Below, one piece after another: positions 1-14,532 of a stretch of DNA of 21,175 bases (position 1 is its first letter; the number at the start of each line of letters is the position of its first letter). A program made the translations under genes and the position numbers. Under the pieces are notes generated by a model that saw only the letters and a program-made list of their open reading frames with translations, ran no database searches and was not told where the DNA came from. Origin of the DNA: a virus. The stretch covers positions 1 to 21,175 of IMG/VR virus record IMGVR_UViG_3300035698_008229; one strand, written 5' to 3'.

Positions 1-537
1 CATTACCCCGGTGTGTGCGGAAACGTCTACAATAGAATACGTCTTCCCATCGGCGTCACCACCGAATGAAAAACCCTCTGAAACAGTTAGCTCAGTTGCG
101 CTTACAATGGCAGTAACGTATCCGAACTCAGGAGACGCCCCGCTCTTCTCAAGTATTATAGCGTCACCTATGGCAACCGGAGTACCTCCCGAAAAGTCCT
201 TCGTGGTATCTATGATGGAAGTCGTTGATCCACCAGAAGCGGTTCCGCTGAAAATTACCGTCCCGATGTCTTGTGCGTTATCATCCGATGCAACATCAAC
301 GGCTGCTGCTGTTGCTGGAGTATTTATATTCCCAGTCCCTTCCCAAACATCTCTCAGCGCTGTACCTGTTGCCGAGGCATACCCAAGATGGAACCATGGC
401 TGGTGGTCGGCTATGTCACCTTCAGCAAGTGCCTGAAGATAATCCTGTGCGCAGATTTGTGGCGCACCGTCATTGTTGATGTACCCATGAGCTGTCCCGT
501 CAGCATCGGTGTATTTTACTGATGAAAAATAACTCAT
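1..537 (-). CDS. Virion structural protein, C-terminus cut by window edge
   Basis: The reading frame opens with ATG at 537-535, follows a good Shine-Dalgarno (GGAGG six bases upstream), and stays open for 179 codons to the window edge, so the C-terminus is missing. The ATG overlaps the TGA of the preceding gene as ATGA, which indicates translational coupling. The visible protein is rich in Gly, Ala, Ser, Thr and Asp and looks like beta-structure. A stretch around residues 65-110 (starting LRDVWEG, then alternating small and hydrophobic residues) resembles small virion proteins found downstream of tail genes in many siphophages; that resemblance is from memory and family-level only. Its place after the tape measure and the LamG protein suggests a tail-tip or surface protein. 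The exact role is unknown. Confidence 0.65.
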   Translation of the reverse strand, partial: MSYFSSVKYTDADGTAHGYINNDGAPQICAQDYLQALAEGDIADHQPWFHLGYASATGTALRDVWEGTGNINTPATAAAVDVASDDNAQDIGTVIFSGTASGGSTTSIIDTTKDFSGGTPVAIGDAIILEKSGASPEFGYVTAIVSATELTVSEGFSFGGDADGKTYSIVDVSAHTGVM

Positions 538-968
538 TTTATCCTCCAGTTTGTTCCGTTGCTTTTAACGAGCAGATTACTATCAGGCGGCACCGACTGC
601 GATGTCTCGCCTTGGATAGTTCCACCGTTACTATCTACCGTGATATTACCAGCAGATGAATTATCAATCTCATACGGTCGTCCTGCTATTCCAACTGCTG
701 ATGGCAAGGTGATCGTTTTTCCTGTCGCTGTCACCTCAACGGTAAAGTGCGCTGATGTGAGGGTAAGATCGACGGCTGTTATCGTATAATTGGTGTACGG
801 GTAGAAGGCCCGTTCGGTTCCGTCATTGTCGAGAACGATTAGCTCCCCGGTGTCATTCGAGAAGTATAGCTTGAGGTTTTCCCCGCTCGCCGTTACGTTC
901 GCGCGGCTTTGGTTCGCAAGGTATATACTCTTGCTTACCGCACCGGTTTTCGTAAATTCATTATTCAT
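534..968 (-). CDS. Small tail or fibre-like virion protein
   Basis: A 144-residue protein that starts at an ATG overlapping the upstream TGA (ATGA), with GAGGA upstream. The C-terminal half (about residues 80-144) is a beta-rich pattern seen at the ends of many phage tail fibre and tail-spike proteins: KTITLPSA, a Gly-rich turn, then alternating strands built of Asn, Ser, Gly and Thr, and a final NGTNWRIK. Such C-terminal modules often form trimeric receptor-facing heads; that is family knowledge, not shown here. It lies in a chain of three coupled small genes at the distal end of the tail module. A receptor-binding or surface role is likely but inferred; a decoration protein is the alternative. 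Confidence 0.7.
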   Translation of the reverse strand: MNNEFTKTGAVSKSIYLANQSRANVTASGENLKLYFSNDTGELIVLDNDGTERAFYPYTNYTITAVDLTLTSAHFTVEVTATGKTITLPSAVGIAGRPYEIDNSSAGNITVDSNGGTIQGETSQSVPPDSNLLVKSNGTNWRIK

Positions 969-1303
969 GTTTCGGTATCCTCGAATGTGTTTTGGCAGTT
1001 CAAGATAGTCGTAGGCGTTTCGTTAAAAACATCCTGCCACACTTCTTCGTTCGCGTCGGTGAAAAGGTCTTGAACGATCTCAGGTGTCTTTCTTCCGTGG
1101 AGCAGTTCAAGTTCTTCGTTCTGAATCTCGATACCGATTTCTACCAGTTCGGAACCTTCGTCTTCAGCAACACCAAGTTCAACCGCTTGTGTTTTGTTTG
1201 CCGAGATAGATACCGGCATTGCTAAAGAATACGCGACGTTCATGACGCCCGTTTCATTGTTCTCAACGTATTCAAATATTTCTCGAAAGGTCAGGTCTGC
1301 CAT
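965..1303 (-). CDS. Hypothetical protein in tail module
   Basis: A 112-residue acidic protein that I do not recognise. The start ATG follows GGAG with good spacing and comes directly after the tandem TAA TAA that ends the LamG-tube gene. The stop TGA overlaps the next start (ATGA). There is no signal peptide, membrane segment or cysteine motif; a single Cys lies near the C-terminus. The middle (about residues 35-70) is rich in Glu and branched aliphatics and may form helix or beta structure. The position between a tail protein and a fibre-like protein, with coupling on both sides, suggests a tail-tip component or assembly factor. This rests on position alone. Confidence 0.6.
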   Translation of the reverse strand: MADLTFREIFEYVENNETGVMNVAYSLAMPVSISANKTQAVELGVAEDEGSELVEIGIEIQNEELELLHGRKTPEIVQDLFTDANEEVWQDVFNETPTTILNCQNTFEDTET

Positions 1304-1306
1304 TTA

Positions 1307-3451
1307 TTACTCCACGCGTATTTTGATTTCGTCAATTATTTGATGGTTACTATCCCCTGCCACTCGGTATTCAAGTTCTGACGATGCTGGTATAATTGTC
1401 GCTGATCCTGTGGCTATTTGCTCGATATCATCTATCCATAGTTGCCATACGCCAATGGTACTTTTTGCTTTAAGTAAATACCTTGTATTGGGAGATACTA
1501 TGCCAGCATATATTATAATCAAATTTGAAACGCCATTATCAACGTAAATATGTATATCATTGCCATTATTCGAGTACTGAATATCAAAGTCTGTTGTCCC
1601 TGGAGCACCACGCCTGAATAGCGATGCCGCGCCGGTCGTCTCCCTCGTAAAATAAAATTCGACGCTCCAAGTATTTATTGCTGTCAACGCTTGTGATGCA
1701 AGATATGATATCGTTAGATAGTTATTATCGGTTGACCAAAAATCAAACGCATACCCTATTGCATCAGCGATATATCTCGCTGTGCCTGTCCAGATAGCCG
1801 TATTATCAGCAATGGAATCATCTGGATTGTTTTCACCTTTCCACCAGCCTTTAATCGTAGCATCAATCGTTTCTTCATCGCACACAGCCGGTGTGACTAT
1901 TTTCCCGGTGATAAGCCTATCCGCTACCCTCGCGCCAGCGTACCCGTGCGAGCGCATGAGGCCGCTGAAAAGATTGACCACTTCGCCACTTGATATTTCC
2001 AATGACAGCGGGTAGATGTCAGATCCGAAAAGTGTTGTAACCATGCTCATTGCCGGGATAGGAATGCCTGCGTCAAATGTCGATGCCGTTATCCTGTCAG
2101 CGTATGCCAGCGTCGTTATCCCTTCAAGCGCACCAATAAAGGAGAACTCAATCGCTATCGGTTTTCCTACCTTGTCAAGGACAAATTTGACATTGCCCAT
2201 TGCTCCGCTTATTTTATAAACCAATTGACGAGGCTCTTCTGATTCATCCTCATAGACTACTTCAATGGTCGCCGGTACGCGGTTCATTATAGAAGATGGT
2301 TTTACCGAGACGCCGGAATTGCCATGCGATGTTTGCGCCCACCCGCACGCGCGAAGCATGTCATAGTATTTCGGCGCGTCGTTGTCGAATAGCTGCGCGT
2401 AGAGATCGACCTTGAAGTTCACAGCGCAAGATCGCTTCCCGCTTATGCTGGTGACGTTGGAGAAGTCGCCGCGCTGTTCCTGTCGAGGTGTTGATTCAAT
2501 ATCAGGGGCCACTTTCAAGTCGTAGGCATGATAGGAATATTCAGCCGTTGTCAACGTCTCTGGTGTATACGGTGTTGATTCGAGTTTGAATCCGAGGAGG
2601 TCTTTGTGCTCGGTTATGTAAATTCCACGAGTGTTAGCGTCTGGTGATGGCGTTGCCCATAATACGCTTCCGGCGCCGGTTGCGCTATTCCATTCAGAGT
2701 AATCAAACCAATCGGCAGCGGGGGTTCCAGCGGCTTTTATTATCTCGATTTCAGCGTCGGTCAGAGCCTCGTTGAAAATCATAAAACCCTTGTAAATACC
2801 GTTTGCTTGTAAAAGATCGGCATTGACAGGAATATTTAACTTTGCCAGTGATCCATCACTCGGCAAGTGGGTTAGAATATCATTCCCGGATGTTTTCTCG
2901 GTGTCACCTATGCGTAATTTTTGGTAGTAATTTGTTGGAGCGATAAATCTACGCATGCAATAAAATCGTTCTACGCCGTCATTGAGTGCCCCGTATCCTG
3001 ACGGGTTAAAAGCATACGGGGTTTGGTTGCCAGATTCATGCCATAGCCGTTGTGCAAATCCAGTCGTTAACCGCGACAACCTATAAAGTGTATTGCTGTC
3101 TGACCCTGCACCAGAACCGCACATACAATAATACAATCGGTATGAGTCAAATTCTGTGAAGGAATGTGTAAAAATAATCGTGATCTCACCGGTTATTTGT
3201 AGTGCCGCTTTCACTGAAGATTCAAGATGTCCGTATCCTGATCCGGCACCGCTCGTGAAATACGCTCGTTCATCCCCGCACGTCTCCCCAGCCCCGAAAT
3301 CAGTTAGAGCAAGCGCGAGGGCCCCGCTGTCAGATTGATCCGCGACGTTCGGAGTGTACCCTGTCGTATGCAGGCCCTCACAAAAAGGGTACCATGCGAC
3401 AAGCGATTCCTTTGAAGCAAGTAAGTCACGAAAGGCTGTTGGAATTGCCAT
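1307..3451 (-). CDS. LamG / tail-tube-like / LamG chimeric tail protein
   Basis: This 714-residue protein has three parts. Residues 1-245 look like a laminin-G/ConA-like jelly roll, opening LVAWYPF and closing with FNEALTDAEIEII, a typical LamG end. Residues about 283-525 are clearly homologous to the tail tube protein encoded at 7208-6231: both share LESTPYT/LEDTAYT, PDIES/PEIES, SISGKR/SISGRR, VDLY, RACG, NRVP-TIEVVY, GAMG and EGITT/DGITT in the same order. Residues 532-714 look like a second LamG-like sandwich, starting IKGWWKGE and ending IIDEIKIRVE. The gene follows the tape measure by two bases and has only a weak Shine-Dalgarno, so coupling is likely. A distal tail or tube-decorating adhesin is the best guess. 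It ends in tandem TAA stops. Confidence 0.85.
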   Translation of the reverse strand: MAIPTAFRDLLASKESLVAWYPFCEGLHTTGYTPNVADQSDSGALALALTDFGAGETCGDERAYFTSGAGSGYGHLESSVKAALQITGEITIIFTHSFTEFDSYRLYYCMCGSGAGSDSNTLYRLSRLTTGFAQRLWHESGNQTPYAFNPSGYGALNDGVERFYCMRRFIAPTNYYQKLRIGDTEKTSGNDILTHLPSDGSLAKLNIPVNADLLQANGIYKGFMIFNEALTDAEIEIIKAAGTPAADWFDYSEWNSATGAGSVLWATPSPDANTRGIYITEHKDLLGFKLESTPYTPETLTTAEYSYHAYDLKVAPDIESTPRQEQRGDFSNVTSISGKRSCAVNFKVDLYAQLFDNDAPKYYDMLRACGWAQTSHGNSGVSVKPSSIMNRVPATIEVVYEDESEEPRQLVYKISGAMGNVKFVLDKVGKPIAIEFSFIGALEGITTLAYADRITASTFDAGIPIPAMSMVTTLFGSDIYPLSLEISSGEVVNLFSGLMRSHGYAGARVADRLITGKIVTPAVCDEETIDATIKGWWKGENNPDDSIADNTAIWTGTARYIADAIGYAFDFWSTDNNYLTISYLASQALTAINTWSVEFYFTRETTGAASLFRRGAPGTTDFDIQYSNNGNDIHIYVDNGVSNLIIIYAGIVSPNTRYLLKAKSTIGVWQLWIDDIEQIATGSATIIPASSELEYRVAGDSNHQIIDEIKIRVE

Positions 3452-3453
3452 AA

Positions 3454-5007
3454 TTATCTCGCGTACTCATAATCGGTGAGGCGGCCTTCGTTCTTCGCCT
3501 GAAGCATGGCCTTGCCGATGATAGGTACAAGTGAGTCAACGGTATATTGCGCCGCAGACTGGTCATAGTTCCCGCCAGCGCCGACGTTGATATGAAGGTT
3601 TACAGCGTCATTTGAACTTCGCGACCTGTTGTCGTTATTCGTGGTAAGCAGATTCCACATCTTCGTCTGCTGCTCCTTATTCAGGATCATCTCCCCGGGA
3701 GTAAGCATGGCCGAGACTGAATCACCTGCGGACGGTGTGCCGCCTACCACGCCGCCGCCAGCGTACTTCTGCTGGCCTATAATGGCAACCTGTGCCATAC
3801 CGGACGCAATGATGAAAGGGATCATCCACGGGGTTGCCAGTGACTTCGTAACGGCAAGGGCTGTATTTGCCGTCGCCTGCGCGATATCAATACCCTTCTG
3901 AACTCCTGCACCGGCCTTCGACGCCTTGGCTATCTGGGAGAATGAGCCGAGTACGACGCTTGTGCCACGATCCCAGTTCTGGATTCTTGCTCTCGTATTA
4001 TCATCGTCTTGTTTTTTCTGTTCTTTTTTTCCATCCGACTCTATTTTGTCCCCGATGATTTTATACTTATCATTGATAAGCGCCTTTGCTTCTTTGTTAG
4101 TTTTGTACTGTTCAAGCTCGCGATCGAGCTTGAGTTGATTCAGCGCGAGTTCTTTTTCGACTCCGCTTTCCATGATCGACAACGTTGTGTCTTCCAGAGA
4201 TTCTTGTGCTGTTTTAATGGCGGCATTGACCGCATCTATTTCTGACACATCACCGAGGAACATTGATAAGGCATCACCCTGATCATTTCCAATATCTTTT
4301 CCAATCGAGTCGAGCAAACTATTTACATCATCAATACTTTTCTTTTGATTATTCTTTGCATCTTCAGCGGCCTTGTTATTAATAACTTTTAACTTCTGCT
4401 GATACAAATCCCATATTGCAAGTTGCTTCGTTGTTGCGTCTTCTTCCTCACCGACGCTTGCCTTCCGCCTTTTCATCTCCTCAAAAAGAAGTTGCTTCTG
4501 CATATTTATTGAAAATGCAGCTCGTTCTTTATTTATAGTTTCCCATGTTATTGCTTCTTCTTTTATAATTTCTGTTGTGCTGTCCACAGTTGTTTCGAAA
4601 TTATCAACGATACTCGCGTTGTTAGAACGAGTCACACCAAGTATCTGCTGCATTCCAGTTGACCAGAGATGAATAATCGTTCCTATACCGTCAACCCATA
4701 ACTTTAATACTGGAAGTAAATCTTTGACGATAATATTGATGAATGGGTTTATCCCTTCGGTTATAGATTTACCAAGCCCTTCTGTAATATCACCGAGGGC
4801 CATTTCAAGTTGAATAGCAGGGCCACTACCAACGGCCCCTATCGATTGAGCAGCTCCGTCAACTTGTTTTGCCATATTTCGCATGGCAGTTTCAATTCTC
4901 TCTGTTGACCCGACTGCTCCAGTAATTTCAATACCATATCTCGTCAATGCGTTAGTTGAAGACCCGATTGATTTTCCAACGAGATCTGCAGCTGCCGCAA
5001 GGTTCAT
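3454..5007 (-). CDS. Tail tape measure protein, C-terminal part
   Basis: This is the main body of a tape measure protein, which sets tail length and leaves through the tube during DNA ejection. The 517 codons begin at an ATG directly behind the TAA of the 5008-5469 frame, in the same frame, with no Shine-Dalgarno. The first residues (NLAAAADLVG, then SSTNALTRYGI) match the interior of intact tape measures rather than an N-terminus. Residues about 150-345 are charged, coiled-coil-like helix; about 370-412 are Ala-rich and hydrophobic, holding likely membrane-active helices. Residues 416-450 carry the common tape measure ending GGGVVGGTPSAGDSV and MLTPGEMILNKEQQ. If the stop is a nonsense change or is read through, the full product is about 671 residues. 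Confidence 0.88.
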   Translation of the reverse strand: MNLAAAADLVGKSIGSSTNALTRYGIEITGAVGSTERIETAMRNMAKQVDGAAQSIGAVGSGPAIQLEMALGDITEGLGKSITEGINPFINIIVKDLLPVLKLWVDGIGTIIHLWSTGMQQILGVTRSNNASIVDNFETTVDSTTEIIKEEAITWETINKERAAFSINMQKQLLFEEMKRRKASVGEEEDATTKQLAIWDLYQQKLKVINNKAAEDAKNNQKKSIDDVNSLLDSIGKDIGNDQGDALSMFLGDVSEIDAVNAAIKTAQESLEDTTLSIMESGVEKELALNQLKLDRELEQYKTNKEAKALINDKYKIIGDKIESDGKKEQKKQDDDNTRARIQNWDRGTSVVLGSFSQIAKASKAGAGVQKGIDIAQATANTALAVTKSLATPWMIPFIIASGMAQVAIIGQQKYAGGGVVGGTPSAGDSVSAMLTPGEMILNKEQQTKMWNLLTTNNDNRSRSSNDAVNLHINVGAGGNYDQSAAQYTVDSLVPIIGKAMLQAKNEGRLTDYEYAR

Positions 5008-5469
5008 TTATTTGGCGGCAGCAAAATCTACTATCAAAGGCGTTAATTTTCTGATTTGATCTTCTTCTTTTACGAACTGCGCGAGGCGAGCCTGTGCCTG
5101 AATAATCTCTTCATCGCCATATCTTGTCTTCGTCTGAATGGCAGAGGCCTGATCGAGAAGCGCTTGACTGGTAAACCCAAGTGCGTTGCGAAGTAATTCC
5201 TGAGCCGTTATCTGTTTATCGTAAGCAGCTATACTCTCAGATATAGTCCCTGACATTGCCTGCCATGCGCCGCGTAACGCCCCAAGCGCAACCTGTGCGG
5301 TCGCGAACCCACCCATCGTCGTGAGAAACTGCTTTGTCCCGCTGCTCGCTTTTGCCATCGACTCGGTAGATGTATTTTTGAATTCACCGAGTGACTTGTT
5401 TATATTACCAATCTCTCCGCTGATAAAATTCTTCATCCGCGCTTCGAGCTGCAATACTTCGTTTGCCAT
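5008..5469 (-). CDS. Tail tape measure protein, N-terminal part ending at in-frame TAA
   Basis: These 153 codons start at ATG 5469-5467 behind a strong GGAGG, one base after the chaperone stop. The product is helical and Ala-rich with a hydrophobic stretch near residues 50-70, followed by YDKQITAQELLRNALG and an IQTKTRYGDEEI segment, both typical of tape measure N-terminal regions. The frame ends at TAA (5010-5008), and the very next codon is the ATG of the C-terminal part in the same frame. The conserved segment (LIVDFAAAK, stop, MNLAAAADLVG) runs straight across the stop. So this is most likely one ancestral gene interrupted by a nonsense codon, though an expressed split by reinitiation or readthrough is possible. 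Confidence 0.85.
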   Translation of the reverse strand: MANEVLQLEARMKNFISGEIGNINKSLGEFKNTSTESMAKASSGTKQFLTTMGGFATAQVALGALRGAWQAMSGTISESIAAYDKQITAQELLRNALGFTSQALLDQASAIQTKTRYGDEEIIQAQARLAQFVKEEDQIRKLTPLIVDFAAAK

Positions 5470-5470
5470 G

Positions 5471-5806
5471 TCAGGCCTCCATCAAACAGGAGTTAAATTC
5501 TGTATCGTAAATGCGTTCAGCAGCGAGATACCTCGGACTGACTTCATCAATTCCGGGGAACTTCGCCGACGGGTGCTTCTCAAAAAATGACTGGCACTTC
5601 AGAAACTCCCAAACTGACGAAGGAATGAATTGAACGGGACACGACCAGAAATTGGTTCGCACCCCGCCCTCTTCATCAACCATAGTCGGATTTGCCATAA
5701 TAGTACGCCCTTCGCAACCCCACACTTTTTTGCGGCTTGGATCGTCTCGGCATACGTCACATCTGAAATTGCGCCCCGCCTTGCCGCTTTTTAAGCGTGC
5801 GCTTAT
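5471..5806 (-). CDS. Tail assembly chaperone, -1 frameshift extension (T-like)
   Basis: A -1 frame opens where the chaperone frame 6231-5803 ends and runs 111 codons to TGA at 5473-5471. A GTG at 5725 could start a shorter 84-residue form, but no good Shine-Dalgarno precedes it. The frame is open and protein-like upstream of that GTG, including Cys-x2-Cys (residues 158 and 161 of the fusion), then WGC at 171-173 and SCPV near 197. These four cysteines suggest a small zinc-binding fold. This is the arrangement of the lambda G/GT pair, in which frameshifting makes a longer chaperone that binds the tape measure; the tape measure gene follows directly. The fused protein would have 253 residues. 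Confidence 0.75.
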   Translation of the reverse strand: MSARLKSGKAGRNFRCDVCRDDPSRKKVWGCEGRTIMANPTMVDEEGGVRTNFWSCPVQFIPSSVWEFLKCQSFFEKHPSAKFPGIDEVSPRYLAAERIYDTEFNSCLMEA

Positions 5807-6231
5807 TTTAAACCGAGCACCTCTTCCTGTGATAAAGATGCCCTGCTCAAAATTGCTTCACAAAGCTCTTCGAGAATCGTGATTGGAAGATTCGTTGCTG
5901 TGCCTATGAAGTCTACTATGCGGCCTTCACCGTCATAGTAGTTGTCCCAGCGCACAAGCCCTTTTGCAACAACATTGATCGTGAACTCGCCCCGCTTTAC
6001 CGCGATGGTTGCCTTCCCATTTTCGACCTGAACTTCACCGCGCATCGAGTCTGAGAACCGCAGAGCGTCTTCGCCAGAGATAGGCCGAAGCGTGAACTTC
6101 GGCTTTATCTCTTCCGGCAAGTCACGAAACGCTATCGGGACGTACACGAACTGTTCCTCTGGCCGGATCGCCGCAAAGCGACGAATCCGGTCAAGATACT
6201 CTTTGCTGATGGTCACGTTTTTTGTTTCCAT
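5803..6231 (-). CDS. Tail assembly chaperone (G-like)
   Basis: A 142-residue protein between the tail tube and tape measure genes, the standard place for the tail assembly chaperone of siphophages. The start ATG overlaps the tube gene stop as TAATG. The sequence shows a chaperone-like pattern: RPISGEDALRFSD at about 51-63, a VRWDNYYDGEGR segment at about 112-123, then LPITILEELCEAI and a charged SQEEVL end. Chaperones of this kind coat the tape measure and help tube polymerisation in the host cytoplasm. The gene ends GGT TTA AAA TAA, so a T TTA AAA slippery heptamer touches the stop and could send some ribosomes into the -1 extension. Confidence 0.82.
   Translation of the reverse strand: METKNVTISKEYLDRIRRFAAIRPEEQFVYVPIAFRDLPEEIKPKFTLRPISGEDALRFSDSMRGEVQVENGKATIAVKRGEFTINVVAKGLVRWDNYYDGEGRIVDFIGTATNLPITILEELCEAILSRASLSQEEVLGLK
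5806..5812 (-). promoter_or_regulatory. Probable -1 ribosomal frameshift site (T TTA AAA)
   Basis: Read on the minus strand, the end of the chaperone frame is GGT TTA AAA TAA. This contains T TTA AAA in the correct phase for the X XXY YYZ slip rule, directly before the zero-frame stop. A -1 slip gives ATA AGC GCA and an open frame of 111 codons. Eight bases past the heptamer lies a small hairpin (CGCTT, AAA loop, AAGCG; plus-strand 5785-5797), weak but at a usual stimulator distance. Confidence 0.72.
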
Positions 6232-7208
6232 TAAGTCTTGCTCCCTTGAAGAATTTCATACTCGTCATTTCCTGACGTGCTTCGCTTGAGTTCGATTTTG
6301 AGCGGGTTTGCCATGTGTCCTTCACGGGCCTCCGGTTTGTACGAATCAACAATCTGAGCGACAGGAGCAGAGATATAAAACGGGACTGAGCCGCCGACAG
6401 TAACCGAGAGAGCCCCGGTAGTGTTGTTGATCTGTGACGTGAGATAGTCTTTATCGTCTGTCACAACCATGTCAGGGTCGCATTCCATCACGGCGTTACG
6501 GTCAACCACGCGTGCTCCTTCGTATCCCTGCGCCTTCGATATGTCGCTGAACATCTGTACATCCTCGCCACCGTCAATCATGAACTTCGACGGGAACTGC
6601 CATGTGCCGAAGAATGAAAATGTCGCAGCAAGGATGGCAGGGGGAAGGGCGGTGTCGAATGCGGTAGGGGTGAGCAGGCTTGCGTTGGCTCTGGTCGTGA
6701 TGCCATCGAGCACGCCCTGAAACTCGAATGTGATCTTGATAGGCTGTCCTATCTGCGGGCTTTCAATCTTGAGCTTTCCCATTGCTCCGCGAACCTTGAC
6801 AACTATCTGCCGAGGGGTTGCGCCCTCTTCTGGGTAAACTACTTCGATGGTTCCAGGCACCCGATTGTAGTCGGCGTTCGGCGTGAGCGAGATCCCGGTT
6901 GAGCCGTGGGCGAGCTGCTTGTACCCGCAGGCACGAATCATTGCAAAATATTGCGGTGCGACCGCTACGCCTGAACCTGGGTATAGATCGACCGCGCAGG
7001 TGACGGTGCATTTGCGCCTGCCGCTGATTGATACGTCCCGGGAGTAGTCGCCACGCGCGAGCTTACGGGCATACGATTCAATCTCCGGCGAAACCTTCAC
7101 TTCGTAAATCCGCTGATTGTAATCTGCCGCCGTGAGAGTCTCTGCTGTATACGCAGTATCCTCAAGCGAGAACCCCATCGTAACCTTGTTTTCCATAAGT
7201 CTCAACAT
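6231..7208 (-). CDS. Major tail tube protein
   Basis: A 325-residue protein between the tail terminator and the chaperone, the usual place for the tail tube subunit that polymerises into the DNA conduit. The ATG at 7208 follows AGGAGGT with seven bases between, so this start is preferred over the internal ATG at codon 5. The sequence is beta-rich with no membrane segment. Its core (about residues 8-260) is repeated as the central domain of the LamG protein at 3451-1307, with shared SISGRR/SISGKR, NRVP-TIEVVY, RGAMG/SGAMG and DGITT/EGITT blocks. The C-terminal 65 residues have no counterpart there and might be a projecting domain. The identification rests on position, size and paralogy; I did not recognise a named family. 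Confidence 0.8.
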   Translation of the reverse strand: MLRLMENKVTMGFSLEDTAYTAETLTAADYNQRIYEVKVSPEIESYARKLARGDYSRDVSISGRRKCTVTCAVDLYPGSGVAVAPQYFAMIRACGYKQLAHGSTGISLTPNADYNRVPGTIEVVYPEEGATPRQIVVKVRGAMGKLKIESPQIGQPIKITFEFQGVLDGITTRANASLLTPTAFDTALPPAILAATFSFFGTWQFPSKFMIDGGEDVQMFSDISKAQGYEGARVVDRNAVMECDPDMVVTDDKDYLTSQINNTTGALSVTVGGSVPFYISAPVAQIVDSYKPEAREGHMANPLKIELKRSTSGNDEYEILQGSKT

Positions 7209-7229: not shown

Positions 7230-7706
7230 TTAAACCATCGAGTCTGGATCGTTCAGTTTTATAGAATAAAATACTTCGAAATCAACAGATACACCGCAGT
7301 TCGGAGTCTCGCGCTCAGTACCCCAGATCGTGCTCGCCAGCCAGATACAATTGAAAGCAGTTCGATCGCTGGCACTCGGCTTGATGTAATAATTAGCACC
7401 GAAGTATTTTTGTAAGTCAGCGATTGCCTTGTCCTGCGCCAGCGACGTATCGTTTTGGCTATTCAGGAACACGTCGAATTGTACCGGCATGAGAATATCA
7501 AGCGTCGGGTTGTTCCCACTGTGCCTATCACCGAGTCGATCTTCACGGCCAAGTAGGATATTTACAGTCGGGTATTGCACCATCGCTTCCATATTGATCG
7601 GCGGCTCGAACACGTCAGCATAGGTATAGTTATACCCTGCTGCAACAGTCATCTCTTCGACACAAGCCTTAAGTGCCAACCTTAGGTTCGTTCTTACAGA
7701 GCTCAT
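7230..7706 (-). CDS. Tail terminator / tail completion protein
   Basis: A 158-residue protein just upstream of the tail tube gene. Size, position and pattern fit the tail terminator (gpU/gp17-like), which caps the growing tube and meets the head-neck complex. Visible features are an N-terminal helix (NLRLALKACVEEM), an MVQYPTVNILLG strand pair, an MPVQFDVFL strand and a helix AQDKAIADLQKYFG, as in small mixed alpha/beta terminators. The start lies inside the 3' end of the upstream glycosyltransferase (38-base overlap) but has a strong GGAGGAA five bases ahead, so it can start independently. It is the first tail gene after the glycosyltransferase island. Confidence 0.72.
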   Translation of the reverse strand: MSSVRTNLRLALKACVEEMTVAAGYNYTYADVFEPPINMEAMVQYPTVNILLGREDRLGDRHSGNNPTLDILMPVQFDVFLNSQNDTSLAQDKAIADLQKYFGANYYIKPSASDRTAFNCIWLASTIWGTERETPNCGVSVDFEVFYSIKLNDPDSMV

Positions 7707-8871
7707 TAAATTCCTCCGTCATTTTCTTGACGATGTTTCGCTGATGTGCAACGTACTCAACACCACTATGATTACTGAGTGCAATTTGATTGTAATGCGA
7801 CGCCATGCCGTACATTCCGAGTGTTGAATAAACGCGGGCAAGATGGTACGCCGGGACTTCCTCGTAAAAAGGAACGGTCTGGAACTTGCCCTTACCGAGT
7901 TTCTTTTTCAATGCTGTCTTGTAAAGGCGCATTGCCGCGTCCATGTCGCCACGCTTGAAGTACACGTCTCCTAGAACAACATACGGTTCAGCATAGTCGA
8001 ATGAGAACGCAGTAGCCATGCGGCACCAGTCTTCAATCTTCTCGATGTTTTCTTCCTTCAGCTGCTCGATTACCGGTCTCTGATGCTGGCACCCGAAAGC
8101 GTAGAACCAGACAAGTTCCATCGATATTGCGTATAACATTTCATACGACGTTTCGAGTTCCTGAACAATACCCTCAAGAATCCCTATTCCTTTTTCATGC
8201 TTGCCGATGTACAGGTAGTCGCGTCCGAGAAAATATCTGGTTTGAATGTCGTTATCACCGATAGTGTAATGCTCGTGTTCGAGTATAGCTATGTTCCGCA
8301 GAGCACTTGCATACGTTGGTTTTGACGGAAGGTGCGTGATGAACATATTATTGATCGACGCGTTCTTCACCATATCCCATTCAGGAGTAAGCAGCTCGTG
8401 AATAGGGCGTGTCCATTTAATCCTGTTGCGCTTGAATACCCGCTCCCGCTTAAACCACATCGAAGGTGAGCCATCCTCATTGACGATGATTGCATACGGC
8501 ATTGACCACATATCAACATCCGCATACTTGTCATCTTTCAGTAGGGCTACGGCACGCGTCCATTGTTCCTTATATTGATCGAGGCAGACGTCATCAGAAT
8601 CTAGCCACATGATCATATCAGAGGAGGTGTTGTCGAGAGCGCAGTTCCGTGCCCCGCCGAAATTACCATGAGGATGCCGTTCACTTTCCCATGCGAACGT
8701 GACAACCTTTTCAGTATACTGTTTGGCAACTGCTTCGACTTCCGTATCGTTGGAAGTATTGACGATTACTATTTCATCGAATGATTCCTTCGCAGAAAAC
8801 GTGCGAAGGCACCTACTCAAAAGACCGGCCTCACCGGGGCCAACAATTACATTGAGCGCGAGTGTGGTCAT
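7669..8871 (-). CDS. GT2-family glycosyltransferase with C-terminal TPR-like helices
   Basis: A 400-residue protein with an N-terminal GT-A domain of the GT2 type. It shows an NVIVGPGEAGLLSRCL start strand and loop, DEIVIVNTSND at about 32-42, FGGARNCAL at about 71-79, and the metal- and sugar-nucleotide-binding WLDSDD at 89-94. The C-terminal half (about 205-370) is helical repeats with TPR-like spacing, such as YFLGRDYLYIGKHEKGIGIL, VLGDVYFKRGDMDAAMRLY and YHLARVYSTLGMYGMASHY. GT2 domains joined to TPRs occur in protein glycosyltransferases such as the peptide S-glycosyltransferase SunS; that comparison is by architecture only. It is the last gene of the island, starts by TAATG overlap with the radical SAM gene and overlaps the tail terminator by 38 bases. 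The substrate is unknown. Confidence 0.85.
   Translation of the reverse strand: MTTLALNVIVGPGEAGLLSRCLRTFSAKESFDEIVIVNTSNDTEVEAVAKQYTEKVVTFAWESERHPHGNFGGARNCALDNTSSDMIMWLDSDDVCLDQYKEQWTRAVALLKDDKYADVDMWSMPYAIIVNEDGSPSMWFKRERVFKRNRIKWTRPIHELLTPEWDMVKNASINNMFITHLPSKPTYASALRNIAILEHEHYTIGDNDIQTRYFLGRDYLYIGKHEKGIGILEGIVQELETSYEMLYAISMELVWFYAFGCQHQRPVIEQLKEENIEKIEDWCRMATAFSFDYAEPYVVLGDVYFKRGDMDAAMRLYKTALKKKLGKGKFQTVPFYEEVPAYHLARVYSTLGMYGMASHYNQIALSNHSGVEYVAHQRNIVKKMTEEFNELCKNEPKVGT
7711..7717 (-). promoter_or_regulatory. Strong ribosome binding site of tail terminator inside upstream gene
   Basis: On the minus strand GGAGGAA lies four bases before the ATG at 7706-7704, within the coding sequence of the TPR glycosyltransferase that ends at 7669. 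It fixes the terminator start and allows it to be translated whether or not ribosomes arrive from the island. Confidence 0.7.
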
Positions 8872-9611
8872 TATTTAGAAGTCCTTTCCGTGTAGTATTT
8901 ATCGAATGCCGCTTCCCATGTCGGCGTTGACTTCTGCTCAATGACTCGCGGTCTGCCCGGCGCTGAAAATCCGCAGTGCCCGCAATGCTTCGCAAACTCT
9001 TTATCGCAATGCTCAACGGTGAGATCGGCTATTGATTGCACGCTTTCAATGTAATCGAAAACGCGGGCCGCTGCCGCCATTGGCGAGCAGGGATAATAGC
9101 CTTTCGTGTTATAGCAGATGCCGCAGTCATGCGTCTGGAAACAGTTGAAGTCATGTTCTTCGCCGAGGTCGACGGGGCTCTCGTTGACCGGGACATACTG
9201 CATAAGGTTCCCGCCTCCATCGACGCCCTTGCCTGTCTTCGCGCTTATGCCGAGGGGAACACCGTACTTGACGCTTATCGAAACAGCCGTGTTTCTCACA
9301 CGAGCATCACCGTTGTTTGTTAGCAGCCAGAACTTGCACTCAGGGTTGTGCGTGTCCCGGTAGTCGATGAGCTTCTGCATTATCTCGTCGATGTGCGGGT
9401 TCATCGAAGGTTCCCCGCCGTGCAGTGTAATGAGCCCCCATTTATGGTTATTGTGAACCGCGTCTGCTATGAAATTCTCTACCGTCTCGACGCTCATTGT
9501 ACGCGCCGCCGGTGCTTGTGTACAGAGATTCGAGCAGTTCGCACAGCGGACATTGCATGCGTAGGTCAAACACAGTTCACAGATGCCATAGTTAGGTTCA
9601 AACCTTTTCAT
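8871..9611 (-). CDS. Radical SAM enzyme with SPASM-like Cys-rich C-terminus
   Basis: A 246-residue radical SAM protein. The ATG at 9611 overlaps the upstream TGA (ATGA) and has AAAGGAG eight bases ahead, so I prefer it to the ATG 78 bases further upstream. The [4Fe-4S] motif is Cys19-x3-Cys23-x2-Cys26 in CNVRCANC, with extra cysteines at 11, 14 and 30. SAM binding is marked by HGGEPSMNP at 64-72, and LLTNNGD at 96-102 is a typical strand. The C-terminal part has cysteines at 157, 163, 166, 175, 202, 210 and 213, suggesting an auxiliary iron-sulfur site as in SPASM or Twitch peptide-modifying enzymes. It sits between two glycosyltransferases. The reaction is unknown; modification of a peptide, protein or sugar is possible. 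Confidence 0.88.
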   Translation of the reverse strand: MKRFEPNYGICELCLTYACNVRCANCSNLCTQAPAARTMSVETVENFIADAVHNNHKWGLITLHGGEPSMNPHIDEIMQKLIDYRDTHNPECKFWLLTNNGDARVRNTAVSISVKYGVPLGISAKTGKGVDGGGNLMQYVPVNESPVDLGEEHDFNCFQTHDCGICYNTKGYYPCSPMAAAARVFDYIESVQSIADLTVEHCDKEFAKHCGHCGFSAPGRPRVIEQKSTPTWEAAFDKYYTERTSK

Positions 9612-10237
9612 TCCAGCATCTCCTTTGGATGGTGTTTCAATATGTATTCCCGCTTCCTCGGCGTTGCCATGAAGTTCGTATAATGGCAAAACGCGAGCTT
9701 GTTCATATCGAGGGTAGGATTGAAAAACCAGTTGAATATCTGCGGCAGTTCATTAACGAAGATGTGGTGCTCGCCGATATGTTCGTTCAAATAATACTGA
9801 TCATACGTATGCCAGTTGTGTGGATCGGAGACGCCGATTTCAAAAACCTTCTTCATCAGTTCTGAATGCCGTTTTGGAATTACCGATAACCCAGCATTGT
9901 ACCTGAAGTACGGGAACGACGCCGACCCGACGCGCTGGCCTACCATAGTGGTATCTACCGCGAAGGAGAACTCGTCCTTGATAAGAAAATCCTCGATGTT
10001 GTACTTCAGGTTGCACGGCAGGATGTCGAGGTCTTGCGCGATGATCATGTCAGCATCAAACATATCGTGTAAAAACGACTTCATCCAGACTGGCGACGTG
10101 TTCTTTGTCTGCTCGATATGTTCAGTGACGACGTGCATCTCGATGCCAAAATGGTTATAATATTTCTCATTGGCCTTTAGCGCGAGGTCTGCGAACGGCA
10201 TGTTTCCGACATTGATGATCACAGCAATTGTTTTCAT
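9608..10237 (-). CDS. GT-A fold glycosyltransferase (GT8-like)
   Basis: A 209-residue protein with a single-domain nucleotide-sugar transferase pattern: strand TIAVIINVG, then a VWMKSFLHDMF helix, IIAQDLDILP at about 66-74 with the DxD metal site (Asp69, Asp71), FRYNAGLSVI near 112-121, and late FCHYTNF. The DxD followed by YNAGL is seen in GT8-like (glycogenin-type) and related enzymes. The family call is tentative, but the transferase fold is well supported. Start and stop each overlap neighbours by ATGA. There is no signal peptide or membrane segment, so it should act in the cytoplasm on host NDP-sugars. Donor and acceptor are unknown. Confidence 0.75.
   Translation of the reverse strand: MKTIAVIINVGNMPFADLALKANEKYYNHFGIEMHVVTEHIEQTKNTSPVWMKSFLHDMFDADMIIAQDLDILPCNLKYNIEDFLIKDEFSFAVDTTMVGQRVGSASFPYFRYNAGLSVIPKRHSELMKKVFEIGVSDPHNWHTYDQYYLNEHIGEHHIFVNELPQIFNWFFNPTLDMNKLAFCHYTNFMATPRKREYILKHHPKEMLE
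9620..9626 (-). promoter_or_regulatory. Ribosome binding site fixing the radical SAM start
   Basis: AAAGGAG on the minus strand ends eight bases before the ATG at 9611. It lies in the 3' end of the upstream glycosyltransferase gene and supports the 246-residue start over a 272-residue alternative. Confidence 0.65.
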
Positions 10238-10521
10238 TTTGTCAGCCTTTCAAGAGCGATCCCCGCGCGTTCATCACTGCCGATTTTGTACGAATGATTC
10301 GTTCGATAAACGTGCTCACGAAGTTTGCTGTTATCACGCCAGAAGCCAGCATCATAGTTTTCATTGTACTCGTGCAACTTTGCCGACATTTTCTTCCCCA
10401 TGCGTTCAGCCAGCGCAAGCATGTCTCTGATGTTCTGTGAGTTCACATCGTCGTCTTGCACAACGTCATTGATCTGCCGAAGCACTTCACAGAGCGTCAG
10501 CTTATAGTTGCAGTCACGCAT
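10234..10521 (-). CDS. Small hypothetical protein in glycosyltransferase island
   Basis: A 95-residue protein counted from the ATG at 10521-10519, which overlaps the methyltransferase stop by eight bases. An in-frame ATG at 10539 would add six residues but has a weaker ribosome site. It looks soluble and helical: LTLCEVLRQINDVV, then NIRDMLALAERMGKKMSAKLHEY, then a charged region ending GIALERLTK. I do not recognise a family; small helical proteins of this kind can be adaptors for enzymes. It overlaps the next glycosyltransferase by ATGA, so it is co-translated with the island. Confidence 0.6.
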   Translation of the reverse strand: MRDCNYKLTLCEVLRQINDVVQDDDVNSQNIRDMLALAERMGKKMSAKLHEYNENYDAGFWRDNSKLREHVYRTNHSYKIGSDERAGIALERLTK

Positions 10522-11113
10522 TGTCACGAAGCACCTCATCGAGTTCTTGAAAGGTGAATACTTGGTTCAAAATATACTTACGATGCTCCTCAAGAAACGG
10601 CCAGTCAAGTATCGCTTGCGGATATGTGATCTGCCTCCCCCACTTTATTATACCACATCCGCAGTCATCTTGCATTGATACCATGAACAACATTGGATTT
10701 GACATGCGCATCGAAGCGAAGACTTTCCACGCTTCGCCATACCACGCCTCACCAACTCGTTCTGTTAATTGAAGATCCTCGTGCTTCGGGCACATATCGT
10801 GCATCACGAGAACACCTTTTTCGGAGAGCACATTCATTCCGTTCAATACATCCGCGTAACATTGTGCGTAGTCGTGATCACCGTCGATGAAAATTAGATC
10901 GAACTTTCTGATATTGTCTTTGAAAAAAGAATCCGATGTCATTTCCAGAAGACCAGGCCGTTGCGATAGAACTTTTATATCCACGCCGGTCTTGTCTTCT
11001 ATTCTGATATTATCGTAGTTCACATCCGGTTTATTAACGCCGACTTCGAGATAATTTCTCGCGCTAATTAATTCAGCTATATGGTTCAGGATGTCTGTAC
11101 GGTTAATTCCCAT
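10514..11113 (-). CDS. Class I SAM-dependent methyltransferase
   Basis: A 199-residue Rossmann-fold methyltransferase. Motif I is YLEVGV at 21-26, an acidic strand end GVDI follows near 43-46, and the post-motif FDLIFIDGDHDY at 71-82 with a downstream KGVLVMHDM strand is typical of the Methyltransf_24 group. Enzymes of this group methylate sugars, small molecules or other substrates. In a glycosyltransferase cluster, capping or decorating a sugar is the simplest reading, but that is inference. The start follows GGAGG six bases upstream and overlaps the preceding gene by 11 bases. A Cys pair (CGCG) near residue 153 is unexplained. Confidence 0.82.
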   Translation of the reverse strand: MGINRTDILNHIAELISARNYLEVGVNKPDVNYDNIRIEDKTGVDIKVLSQRPGLLEMTSDSFFKDNIRKFDLIFIDGDHDYAQCYADVLNGMNVLSEKGVLVMHDMCPKHEDLQLTERVGEAWYGEAWKVFASMRMSNPMLFMVSMQDDCGCGIIKWGRQITYPQAILDWPFLEEHRKYILNQVFTFQELDEVLRDNA

Positions 11114-11969
11114 GGCACGCCTCCACTATATCAACAAGGATCTGCGCCGTTTTTTCAACGGTATATCCTTCTTCGACGAACGAATGCGGGTCGTACGCAT
11201 TCGCTTCAATGCGAGCAATAAAGTCGTCAAACTCTTTGCCCATTGCGTCACCTACTATCCCACACCTATCATCGAAGTGCGGTGCTGAAGTGCATCGGTC
11301 AAATTTATCATCACCAATCCATCGCTTGCTATCAACAACATATACCGGCACCCCGCAAGCGAGTATTTCCATGAGCGCATTACTTGATTTTTCACAGCAT
11401 GAATTGTATATACAGAACTTCGCTTTCGAGCAAGCGGCCTTAAGCTGGTCTATGGTATACTCGCCGTACTTTATTGTCTCAATGGCATTGCCGCGACTCT
11501 CTGCTATTATGCTGGCGGCATTGTAATTGTCTTTATTTTGGTACTTTGTATATATCAACCCAGTATCAGCCGGTTGCCTGTTCTTTGCAATATTACGGTA
11601 TCCATCTTCAACGTCAACAGCCGCCGGGAATATGTGAAAGGTAAAGTCCTTTGTCTCCTCCGGGAATTGCCATCTCCAATAATCAGCAACCCAGTCTGAT
11701 TGAACGATGAAGTTCTTAAACTTTGCAGCCACCCCTGTATGATCCCCCGCGTTGTGCATCACGTTCGGGCCGATAGGTGTGTTATCTGGGATCTCTTCCC
11801 ATCTCTTGAAAACCTGACCTGCCTGCATCCCGACGGCATATTCATAGTTTTCAGAACACACTTCATAGGCAATGCCGAGGCGGTCGAGACCGAGCGTGAG
11901 GTTATACGCGCGGCGTCCCGGCCCCTTGGCAAGGCTCTCGGCAGGATTCATCAAAAGGTTTAGCTTCAC
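11103..11969 (-). CDS. GT-B fold glycosyltransferase (GT4-like)
   Basis: A 288-residue protein that starts at GTG (GTGA overlap with the upstream stop) with GAAGGG ahead. The C-terminal Rossmann domain carries the GT4-like donor-site pattern: YTIDQLKAACSKAKFCIYNS followed by SSNALMEILACGVPVYVV, where the Glu before the ILA helix is the usual ribose contact. The N-terminal half has an acceptor-domain start (LNLLMNPAESLAKGPGRRAYNL, shortened from the usual GG loop). It is shorter than most GT4 enzymes (350-400 residues). No membrane anchor is visible. Substrates are unknown. Confidence 0.82.
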   Translation of the reverse strand: MKLNLLMNPAESLAKGPGRRAYNLTLGLDRLGIAYEVCSENYEYAVGMQAGQVFKRWEEIPDNTPIGPNVMHNAGDHTGVAAKFKNFIVQSDWVADYWRWQFPEETKDFTFHIFPAAVDVEDGYRNIAKNRQPADTGLIYTKYQNKDNYNAASIIAESRGNAIETIKYGEYTIDQLKAACSKAKFCIYNSCCEKSSNALMEILACGVPVYVVDSKRWIGDDKFDRCTSAPHFDDRCGIVGDAMGKEFDDFIARIEANAYDPHSFVEEGYTVEKTAQILVDIVEACHGN

Positions 11970-13033
11970 AGTATCCCTTCGATCACTTCAGCCCATGCCT
12001 TGTGAACCCGCACACGTCGTTCAGAGTGGTCTTGCCTGATAAGCCTGCTGATGTCCTGCAGCTTATCTAGGCTGTACCCGAGGATTTCATGTCGCTCTTC
12101 TGCATTGTCGAAATACTGGATATGCTTCATGTCCCCAGCATAGAAGTCTGCACTATCGAGCCAGTGTGATACGACGTTGAAGTCAAGATAGTTGTTCGGG
12201 TCAAACTCATGCTTGTGCGGAATGAGTGAGTGAACGGCTTTCTTGAAATGGCACTGCCATGAAATGTGATTCAGTACCGGCACCCCGGCGAGGAACATTT
12301 CGAGCAGGTATCTTTTTGTCGGGAAGAAGACAGGCATGCCAGCCGCGTACTGCTCGAAGATCGTCATGGTCGATGTGTTGTACGGGTAGTGGATCGCGCC
12401 CTTGAAGTCAGCAACAGTCTGCCACGCGTGCCCCGCCTTCAGCGCGTCATGTTTCTTTATCATCCGACCAGATGGATCTTTGATGTCGAATGACGCGTAG
12501 TACAGGAACTGATCGTACACCGGGTTGTAATTCATTCCGGTATACTCACATAGTGAGGGAATATATTTCACCTCGCGTTCGATGAATCCCTCGGCGTACC
12601 GCTTGTCGTACAGCGAGTTCGCACAGAGGATGATCTTGCCACTGTCAACGCCGACGCGCAGGTACTCGTTGAACTTTGTCCAGTTCTCCGGGTCACAGTC
12701 AAAGCCGTTCTCATATCTGATAGGGATTTGAATTATGATCGGCTTGTCGAAGTACTCCCACAGCAGAGAGAACGCTGGCGGGTAGCAACATAGGAACGCG
12801 TCATAATCTTTGAACGCGTCCTTGTACGTTTCATAAAACTCCTTGGTCTTACGCTCACGAACGACGTGGCACCAGTTGTCACCTTCAAGTTCAGGGATGT
12901 GCCCTTGCGGGCGATTGATTACAGCAGCGTGCCCGCTTAAGGATATTTCCCGAACGGTATGCCCGAGGGTATTGAAGATGTGCCGGATGTCAGCGCTAAC
13001 GGCAATGTGCTGGTCAATCGATAGTACGCGCAT
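11966..13033 (-). CDS. GT-B fold glycosyltransferase-like protein
   Basis: A 355-residue protein with two Rossmann-like halves. It begins MRVLSIDQHIAVSADIRHIF, with a hinge region near residues 135-175. The late segment IHYPYNTSTMTIFEQYAAGMPVFFP is a divergent form of the GT-B donor-site helix with its conserved Glu and Gly-Pro turn. A helix-rich tail with basic residues (LIRQDHSERRVRVH) closes the protein. It overlaps the preceding GT2 gene by 20 bases and the next by GTGA, and AAAGGA lies seven bases before the ATG. The CAZy family is not clear; the fold assignment is more secure than the function. Confidence 0.72.
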   Translation of the reverse strand: MRVLSIDQHIAVSADIRHIFNTLGHTVREISLSGHAAVINRPQGHIPELEGDNWCHVVRERKTKEFYETYKDAFKDYDAFLCCYPPAFSLLWEYFDKPIIIQIPIRYENGFDCDPENWTKFNEYLRVGVDSGKIILCANSLYDKRYAEGFIEREVKYIPSLCEYTGMNYNPVYDQFLYYASFDIKDPSGRMIKKHDALKAGHAWQTVADFKGAIHYPYNTSTMTIFEQYAAGMPVFFPTKRYLLEMFLAGVPVLNHISWQCHFKKAVHSLIPHKHEFDPNNYLDFNVVSHWLDSADFYAGDMKHIQYFDNAEERHEILGYSLDKLQDISRLIRQDHSERRVRVHKAWAEVIEGIL

Positions 13034-13589
13034 TGTTATCCTTTTCGTAGAAGTATATGGGATGATCGATGTATACCTCTGTATTAAGCAACCGCCTTAC
13101 TGACTCGGAGAATAACCTGTCTTCCCCGTTGTCTATTTCCGGGAACCCGATCTTTCGAGCGATCGCCGTCTTGATAGGATTGAGGTGGTTCGGCGTCCGG
13201 TAATACGCGTCAACGCCGGTGTACCACCCCTGATACTCTATCGAATGCCTGAATGGAAGCGCTTGACCCTGTATTTTCATTATGCCGTCTATCCCGACAC
13301 AGTCAGGCCCGGTTTTGGTCGCATCATAAATAGATTGAACGTAGTCTTCGGCAATAGTGTCGTCGTCATCGACGAACGCCGAGTACTCGCCAGTCGCCTT
13401 CTCAAGGAGCATGTTTCGTTTCTTCCCGACAGACATATCCCCGTCGTCTCCCTCAACAAGCACCTCAATCTTCTTGTCAAGCGCGCTTACTACCTGGCGC
13501 TGGATAGAGCCAAGCAGCCGCGCGAGAGACTCGCTGCGCCCATTGAGGTGACAGATTAGAATCGACAGCCTTACTGTAGGACGTTCCAT
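13014..13589 (-). CDS. GT2-family glycosyltransferase, compact
   Basis: A 191-residue GT-A enzyme. It begins RLSILICHLNGRSESLARLL, has IEVLVEGDDGDMSVGKKRN near 41-59, and the nucleotide-sugar site FVDDDD at 72-77 following ATGEY. NGEDRLFSE near 155 may be the catalytic acidic (ED) motif of GT2 enzymes. It lacks the C-terminal extension of many GT2 proteins, so it is close to a minimal domain. The start overlaps the previous gene by 19 bases. Soluble and probably cytoplasmic. Confidence 0.85.
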   Translation of the reverse strand: MERPTVRLSILICHLNGRSESLARLLGSIQRQVVSALDKKIEVLVEGDDGDMSVGKKRNMLLEKATGEYSAFVDDDDTIAEDYVQSIYDATKTGPDCVGIDGIMKIQGQALPFRHSIEYQGWYTGVDAYYRTPNHLNPIKTAIARKIGFPEIDNGEDRLFSESVRRLLNTEVYIDHPIYFYEKDNNARTID

Positions 13590-14317
13590 TTTCCGATCCC
13601 TGCATTGATAAGGTTTTTTGCAACGATGGTGGAATATGCTATCGCAAAACGTTTGTTCTGCGGGCTGTTCGCGGACTTCTGGACAGGTGACAATCTCTGG
13701 AATGTCTCATCCCACTCGTCTTCTTTTTTCTTTGTTGAATGGTTATGCTGAATATACACCTCTGGGAGATACCGGAGCGTGCCAGTCATTGCCCCGATCA
13801 TAGTCCAGATTACATCGATCATGTCGGCGTGAAAATGCGCACACATAAACGGCTTTCGTGTTGCCTCGACCAGTTGGCGCGAGACAAAAAGATTGACGCA
13901 GCATTTATCGTGCGCTATGTAATTGTCATTGCAGTACACGATGGCATTCCCGTCTGCCGCGTTCATCTCTTCAAGGATTTTTGTATCCCATCCCTGAGTG
14001 AGGAAAACCATGTCATCCCCTAGTTCGGTGACAAGCGTGCCGGGATCGTTGAACCGCGTCTCGTTGTACATCTTGTTGAAATAGAGGGAGAGGTTCGGCT
14101 GCTTGGTTGTCTCGTCGATAATTTCCCAGCAATCCTTCGACGGGAAAAATCTGTTCTGAACGTACTCTCTCGACACCGTGTCGGTAGTGTTAATGCAGTA
14201 CGAGAACCGCAGGCGCGTCGGGTCATCGGCAAGCCTTAGGGCGCTGTCAGTGATGAGTATGAGCTGGAACATACGCTTGTACGTTGGAACCATCAAACAG
14301 ATTTTGTCGTAGATCAC
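13571..14317 (-). CDS. GT-A fold glycosyltransferase, GT2-like
   Basis: A 248-residue protein starting at GTG (GTGA overlap with the membrane protein stop; AAGGGGG upstream). It shows ICLMVPTYKRMFQL at 6-19, the typical GT2 opening strand and helix, then YFNKMYNETRF and VTELGDDMVFLTQGWD at 96-111, with Asp101-Asp102 in the place of the metal-binding DxD. The region VYIQHNHSTKK near 197-207 has histidines that can bind metal in GT2 folds. It is more divergent than the GT2 gene next to it. Substrates are unknown. Confidence 0.75.
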   Translation of the reverse strand: MIYDKICLMVPTYKRMFQLILITDSALRLADDPTRLRFSYCINTTDTVSREYVQNRFFPSKDCWEIIDETTKQPNLSLYFNKMYNETRFNDPGTLVTELGDDMVFLTQGWDTKILEEMNAADGNAIVYCNDNYIAHDKCCVNLFVSRQLVEATRKPFMCAHFHADMIDVIWTMIGAMTGTLRYLPEVYIQHNHSTKKKEDEWDETFQRLSPVQKSANSPQNKRFAIAYSTIVAKNLINAGIGKWNVLQ

Positions 14318-14532
14318 GAATCCCCCTTGTTTCCCTCAAGTAGTATTTTCATGCCGCTCATGAAATTTACGTAGATTGATTTAATCCCGACCCACAGAAA
14401 ATAGCACATCAGCATAGATTCTATTAAATCAACTGGCTTATAGTAAAGCCTTAAAATGACTACCGTCGTTGTTAAGATCATAGGCGTTATTGCTGTTATT
14501 GCGCATGCCTTTGTGATCGCAAGATTTTTCAT
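14314..14532 (-). CDS. Small two-helix membrane protein
   Basis: A 72-residue protein from the ATG at 14532-14530, which overlaps the upstream TGA as ATGA; a GTG two codons earlier is less likely. It has two hydrophobic segments, about residues 8-29 (ACAITAITPMILTTTVVILR) and 37-58 (LIESMLMCYFLWVGIKSIYV), with a short charged tail. Size and topology could fit a membrane anchor for the glycosyltransferases or a small holin-like protein. No lysis gene is nearby, and coupling inside the island favours a role with the glycosyltransferases. I do not recognise a family. Confidence 0.62.
   Translation of the reverse strand: MKNLAITKACAITAITPMILTTTVVILRLYYKPVDLIESMLMCYFLWVGIKSIYVNFMSGMKILLEGNKGDS

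Follow-up and report, generated by a model that had tools for sequence, protein, structure and literature searches.

The tail genes of this virus raise the question of why a phage that already encodes a major tail-tube protein (MTP) should carry a further tube domain fused to other modules, and where in the tail such a protein would sit. We analysed the whole 21,175-base record, a fragment (IMG/VR record IMGVR_UViG_3300035698_008229; hereafter the window), which contains exactly two tube copies. A preliminary description had reported that its 714-aa open reading frame (ORF) resembles the 325-aa tube protein encoded upstream, and pairwise alignment bore this out: in BLASTP, residues 277-512 of the 714-aa protein match MTP residues 2-237 without gaps, with 108 of 236 residues identical (46%), 64% positives and an E value of 2e-70. 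We consider it about two-thirds probable (roughly 0.68) that the locus encodes a tail-tip ring like T5 p140, derived from the MTP, built from two chains per subunit and carrying adhesins for host glycans. The features discussed below are collected in Table 1.

Table 1 Annotated features of the window, with positions in the 21,175-base record.
Feature	Position	Strand	Basis
112-aa ORF (chain B); residues 10-72 (about 1088-1276) correspond to the missing second half of tube domain 2	965..1303	(-)	hmmsearch
Tube-paralogue main chain (chain A), 714 aa: N-module, tube domain 1, first hairpin of tube domain 2, LamG	1307..3451	(-)	
GGAG, Shine-Dalgarno-like, in the final codons of the 714-aa ORF and separated from the following ATG by six bases (TAATAA)	1310..1313	(-)	
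C-terminal LamG (Laminin_G_3-like), about residues 533-711, at the break in tube domain 2	1319..1855	(-)	Homology to L022 and L003 N-modules
First hairpin alone of tube domain 2 (about residues 458-517)	1901..2080	(-)	MTP alignment and MTP strands 215-221, 229-243
Tube domain 1, about residues 277-457	2081..2623	(-)	46% identity to MTP, MTP-model secondary structure, Foldseek
N-terminal module, residues 1-276	2624..3451	(-)	LamG-like by eye only
Tape-measure gene, directly upstream of the paralogue, with in-frame TAA at 5008-5010	3454..5469	(-)	
Tail assembly chaperone-like protein, between MTP and tape measure	5803..6231	(-)	Same place in L003, L004, L007, L009, L022 and others
MTP, 325 aa, two fused tube domains	6231..7208	(-)	AF2 model and Foldseek

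The MTP was modelled with AF2 from a 30-row alignment of relatives (mean pLDDT 85.4). The best PDB match of this model in Foldseek was the SH-Ab15497 major tail protein (4.6e-11), and the other top PDB matches were T5 pb6, the P74-26 TTP and tail-tip chains of about 298 residues from T5/DT57C. The tubes of T5 and P74-26 are built of trimeric rings whose subunit holds two fused tube domains. Since the best fold matches are two-domain tubes of this kind, and since the MTP of a distant family member, L013, lies above the gathering cut-off of Pfam PF18906 (Phage_tube_2; 1.4e-8), which neither the window MTP nor the window paralogue passes, the 325-aa protein is a two-domain tail-tube protein. Because its two tube domains are fused, its rings are probably trimers with pseudo-sixfold symmetry. 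The second domain spans about residues 195 to 322 of the model, where strands 215-221 and 229-243 form its first hairpin. An internal duplication of the MTP is suggested by the predicted fold; profile comparison detects none.

The AF2 model of the full 714-aa protein was poor (pLDDT 40), and neither terminal module is seen folded in it. This quality outside the tube part follows from modules that have almost no relatives and from LamG rows that MAFFT misplaced in the input alignment. The central part still matched tubes in Foldseek (E 2.6e-4), so that the tube fold proposed earlier for this region has a structural match, albeit within a poor model. Sequence searches of the PDB with the paralogue and with the tube profile gave no match, T5 p140 included. 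With the full 714-aa protein as query, no relative was found in IMG/VR or INPHARED, and the tube profiles gave zero matches in 84,980 bacterial and archaeal genomes; these genomes thus yielded no prophage relative and no clue to the host.

Closer inspection of the alignment revealed that the paralogue holds less than a whole tube protein. Its match to the MTP ends after strand 229-243, and the C-terminal LamG interrupts tube domain 2 after the first hairpin, rather than simply being appended. We searched 4299 translated segments of the window and the related loci by hmmsearch with a profile that covers the C-terminal part of the MTP from residue 244 on and was derived solely from MTP sequences. 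Only two non-MTP matches fell below E = 1, one at 968-1303 of the window (E 5e-6; 24.4 bits, against at most 11.4 among 2000 shuffles) and one at 13581-13778 of the related contig L003, which is weak alone (E 0.029 with the profile of MTPs alone, improving to 0.0045 when the window sequence is included). Both small ORFs directly follow their own truncated paralogue, and, aligned with the MTP, they preserve the helix, the N-[TVE]-TG turn and the closing strand (NDEYEILQGSKT in the MTP, NEELELLHGRKT in the window, DDDFELLIGAK in L003); chain B of the window has about 40 extra C-terminal residues. The preliminary placement of a tube domain between two modules is therefore right as to the tube similarity, but the remainder of the tube protein lies in the next ORF, at 965-1303.

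The 714-aa ORF ends in GAG TAA TAA, with an ATG following at once, and the small ORF of L003 begins at an ATG within GAGGAATTATG and likewise has a Shine-Dalgarno-like site. Joining of the two chains by stop-codon readthrough was rejected in view of the double TAA in the window and the separate Shine-Dalgarno-like site and ATG in both phages, and recoding of a stop was rejected since TAA, TAG and TGA all terminate genes here. The paralogue of L003 is split in the same way but has another module inserted, and those of two further relatives, L022 and L007, contain the second half of domain 2 inside one ORF. In the MTP tree, L003 is the sister of the window (moderate support, 75-79), so that a single ancestral split followed by module exchange is the simplest history.

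The terminal modules differ in how far they can be assigned. The C-terminal module of the window is homologous to the N-terminal modules of L022 (33% identity, 1e-14) and L003 (28% identity, 2e-10), and the latter exceeds the Pfam cut-off for Laminin_G_3 (PF13385; 5.8e-7). The window module has no direct match to PF13385 and joins the family through these two homologues, so that residues from about 533 to 711 are indirectly confirmed as a LamG (ConA-like) domain. The 276-residue N-module has no relative in Pfam (E up to 10), PHROG, phage, INPHARED or IMG/VR searches, its hhalign profile comparison was negative, and it is unfolded in the AF2 model (pLDDT 20-30). A motif picked by eye, KGFMIFNEALTDAEIEIIKAAG, is the sole point favouring LamG there; Foldseek matches of the 714-aa model to LamG and pentraxin were sub-threshold and were left out as evidence. 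The earlier proposal of LamG domains at both ends accordingly holds for the C-terminus, through homology, and could not be confirmed at the N-terminus, where every profile search was negative.

Elsewhere, the N-modules of the paralogues are LamG in L003 and L022 and, judged by eye, beta-helix-like in L004 and L007, the last two being 73% identical to each other. The C-terminal module of L003 is homologous to part of a free-standing gene of L009. The homology of the window's C-terminal LamG to N-terminal LamG domains implies that LamG has switched ends, and sequence comparison indicates that the modules fused to the paralogues (LamG, beta-helix-like and other) have been shuffled. The double-LamG form would be specific to the window; its relatives are arranged as LamG-tube, LamG-tube-other or beta-helix-like-tube.

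Relatives were collected by IMG/VR searches, and the paralogue is carried by five phages: the window, L003, L004, L007 and L022. Exactly two tube copies are present in all five and one in each of eight other relatives checked. The carriers share one gene order, namely MTP, chaperone-like gene, tape measure and tube paralogue, and in the three contigs that are long enough (L003, L007, L022) the paralogue is succeeded by a Dit-position gene and, beyond it, by one for a hub-like protein. The window stops short of a Dit-position gene, with three small ORFs after the paralogue. L050 and L034, which are more distantly related, share the gene order but have no paralogue, and their Dit-position gene directly follows the tape measure. 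The label Dit reflects gene position and an internal repeat; homology to established Dits is not its basis. Comparison by hhalign shows the protein to be internally duplicated (E 1e-11; L003:13783-14616, L007:9410-10228, L022:10957-11787 and relatives), and it has no similarity to the tube profile. Given this duplication, it may form a trimeric ring of pseudo-sixfold symmetry, whereas the T5 Dit is hexameric. One candidate for a second tube copy outside this group, gp17 of Rhodobacter phage RcTitan (737 aa, found by fold), was rejected, because its gene precedes the tail chaperone genes and it is thus an enlarged MTP.

Several further features of this neighbourhood were recorded. The TAA at 5008-5010 divides the window tape-measure gene into ORFs 5008-5469 and 3454-5007; L050 has Gln at this position, L003, L004 and L007 read through, and the next ATG has no preceding Shine-Dalgarno-like site. 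The codon is a sequencing error, a nonsense mutation or a true split. Window ORFs 534-968 and 1-537 (-), after the split paralogue, have no counterpart there in L003, L007 or L022, and ORF 534-968 matches PHROG 15797 (6e-8). A large block of glycosyltransferase-, methyltransferase- and radical-SAM-like genes (7669-15191, minus strand) separates the tail terminator from an HK97 gp10-like gene (15181-15681). L003, L004, L007 and L022 have homologous genes, and the block suggests that the virion, the host surface or another target undergoes glycan modification. Long N-terminal repeat extensions are found on the tail-terminator-like proteins L004:6918-7988 and L010:6730-9957 (QSQSA.. and TSTLAI..).

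We then considered the history of the two tube copies. The five paralogues form one clade in the trees (UFBoot 97-100), and five independent duplications were rejected (AU p 0.0004), which supports, from sequence, derivation of the paralogues from one duplication; for the timing of this event relative to the split from L009-type phages, AU p was 0.38. The paralogues evolve faster than the MTPs, with identities between phages of 44-52% (77% for the L004/L007 pair) against 69-86%. Residues A47, K49, R52 and D58 of the beta2-beta3 loop (47-58) and T182, L188, V192 and T196 of the inter-domain linker (182-196) are conserved in nine MTPs but absent from most or all paralogues. Barrel strands 61-72, 133-144 and 157-168, by contrast, are 65-73% identical among paralogues. 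In T5, contacts between rings run through the beta2-beta3 loop and the domain linker (PMC10038345). Since the residues lost lie at the predicted inter-ring contacts, the paralogue probably misfits MTP rings on at least one face, as would be expected of an end ring. Among the placements put forward in the preliminary description, a tail-tip protein derived from the tube by duplication is the one favoured by the shared position in five of five phages, the monophyly, the lost contacts and the T5 p140 precedent.

The same description had also offered a rare decorated ring, which now appears less likely. A decorated tube subunit inserted at random positions, spreading adhesins along the tail, would agree with the closeness of the paralogue to the MTP in sequence and with the adhesin-bearing MTP variants known along the tails of 936 phages and SPP1. 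We nevertheless regard it as unlikely: the paralogue is a separate gene after the tape measure and no frameshift extension of the MTP gene, the loss of MTP-conserved loop and linker residues makes it improbable that both of its faces suit MTP rings, and a split second domain would be odd in an interchangeable subunit. It is also unlikely that the paralogue took over the role of Dit, as a ring under the hub with glycan-binding modules like those of evolved Dits. The gene neighbourhood is the same, and in two phages without the paralogue the Dit-position protein itself bears N-terminal modules instead, LamG-like/PKD in L009:15049-17466 and beta-helix-like/TIG in L029:8480-10816; yet the separate Dit-position protein that follows the paralogue in L003, L007 and L022 also exists in paralogue-free phages and shows no tube-profile similarity.

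The split itself could be read in two other ways. The roughly 40 additional C-terminal residues of chain B in the window would suit a separate protein of tube-like character, such as a further ring or a plug, but we judge this improbable, as the match of chain B is confined to the half missing from chain A, its ORF comes directly after that of chain A in both phages, and the intact relatives L022 and L007 hold this half within one ORF. Degeneration of a decaying duplicate, with chain B as a relic, seems very improbable. The in-frame stop in the window tape-measure gene does indicate that some damage or sequencing error is present here, but two phages whose inserted modules differ are split at one and the same point, each small ORF retains the domain-2 pattern, an ATG and a Shine-Dalgarno-like site, and the paralogue is kept in five of five phages with its barrel strands conserved.

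The tail-tip ring that we favour would have arisen as follows. One duplication of the MTP would have given rise to a single specialised, pseudo-hexameric tube ring, presumably trimeric, between the last MTP ring and the Dit-position protein. Chain A would supply the N-module, tube domain 1, the first hairpin of domain 2 and the LamG, and chain B the remainder of tube domain 2; the two would be translated successively, and strand pairing in the ring would complete the domain. The LamG would stay free at the break, presumably outside the tube, and the modules would bind host surface glycans, an activity assumed from the LamG fold, thereby increasing adsorption in the role that evolved Dits and tail fibres play in other phages. 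The two-chain subunit, in which the sandwich is cut in the loop ahead of the helix, an adhesin sits at the C-terminus so created and another, small protein supplies the rest of the fold, is the newest element, and we lean only slightly towards it; nothing relevant to a split tube protein or a LamG-bearing tube paralogue was found in the open-access literature searched. Different adhesins at the same cut site in sister phages suggest that the split may serve as a swap-in socket at a fixed tail-tip ring.

Tube-like tail-tip rings have usually diverged so far (T5 p140 retains 9% identity) that duplication is argued from the fold alone. Here the duplication is still readable in sequence and unduplicated relatives exist, which allows an order to be given to the events that lead from a tube subunit to a tip ring, namely copying, loss of the contacts between rings, acquisition of adhesins and splitting. 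If the two-chain subunit is real, the tube domain can withstand being opened at one defined loop, where binding modules would find a natural site of insertion.

Like the window paralogue, T5 p140 has the tube fold with two fused tube domains, is paralogous to the tube protein of its own phage and is encoded among the tail-tip genes; it forms a trimer between pb6 and pb9 and has been ascribed to duplication of pb6 (PMC10038345). p140 is a single undecorated chain that holds the p132 collar (PMC10038345), whereas the window paralogue is 46% identical to its MTP, brings its own adhesin modules and occupies two ORFs. As to homology with p140, there was no sequence match, only fold similarity of the MTP model. 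T4 gp48 and gp54 are, like the proposed ring, TTP-like proteins between the baseplate and the first true tube ring (PMC10038345, PMC8718954), but they belong to a myovirus and have no adhesin modules. Evolved Dits of lactococcal and other siphophages likewise form a tail-tip ring that displays carbohydrate-binding modules; here, in contrast, the carrier is a tube-protein duplicate, and a separate Dit-position protein remains (L003, L007, L022). SPP1 gp17.1* and the MTP-TpeX of 936 phages share with the paralogue a tube protein bearing an extra surface-binding domain, and TpeX has been shown to bind host cells (PMC6669499, PMC8718954). Those forms arise by a frameshift in the MTP gene and are spread along the tail, whereas the window paralogue has diverged and is encoded on its own, about 2.8 kb downstream of the MTP gene. 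Tube paralogues at the tail tip (p140, gp54/gp48) and tube or Dit proteins that bear adhesins were thus already known; what the proposed locus would add is a self-decorated, p140-like ring whose ancestry can still be read.
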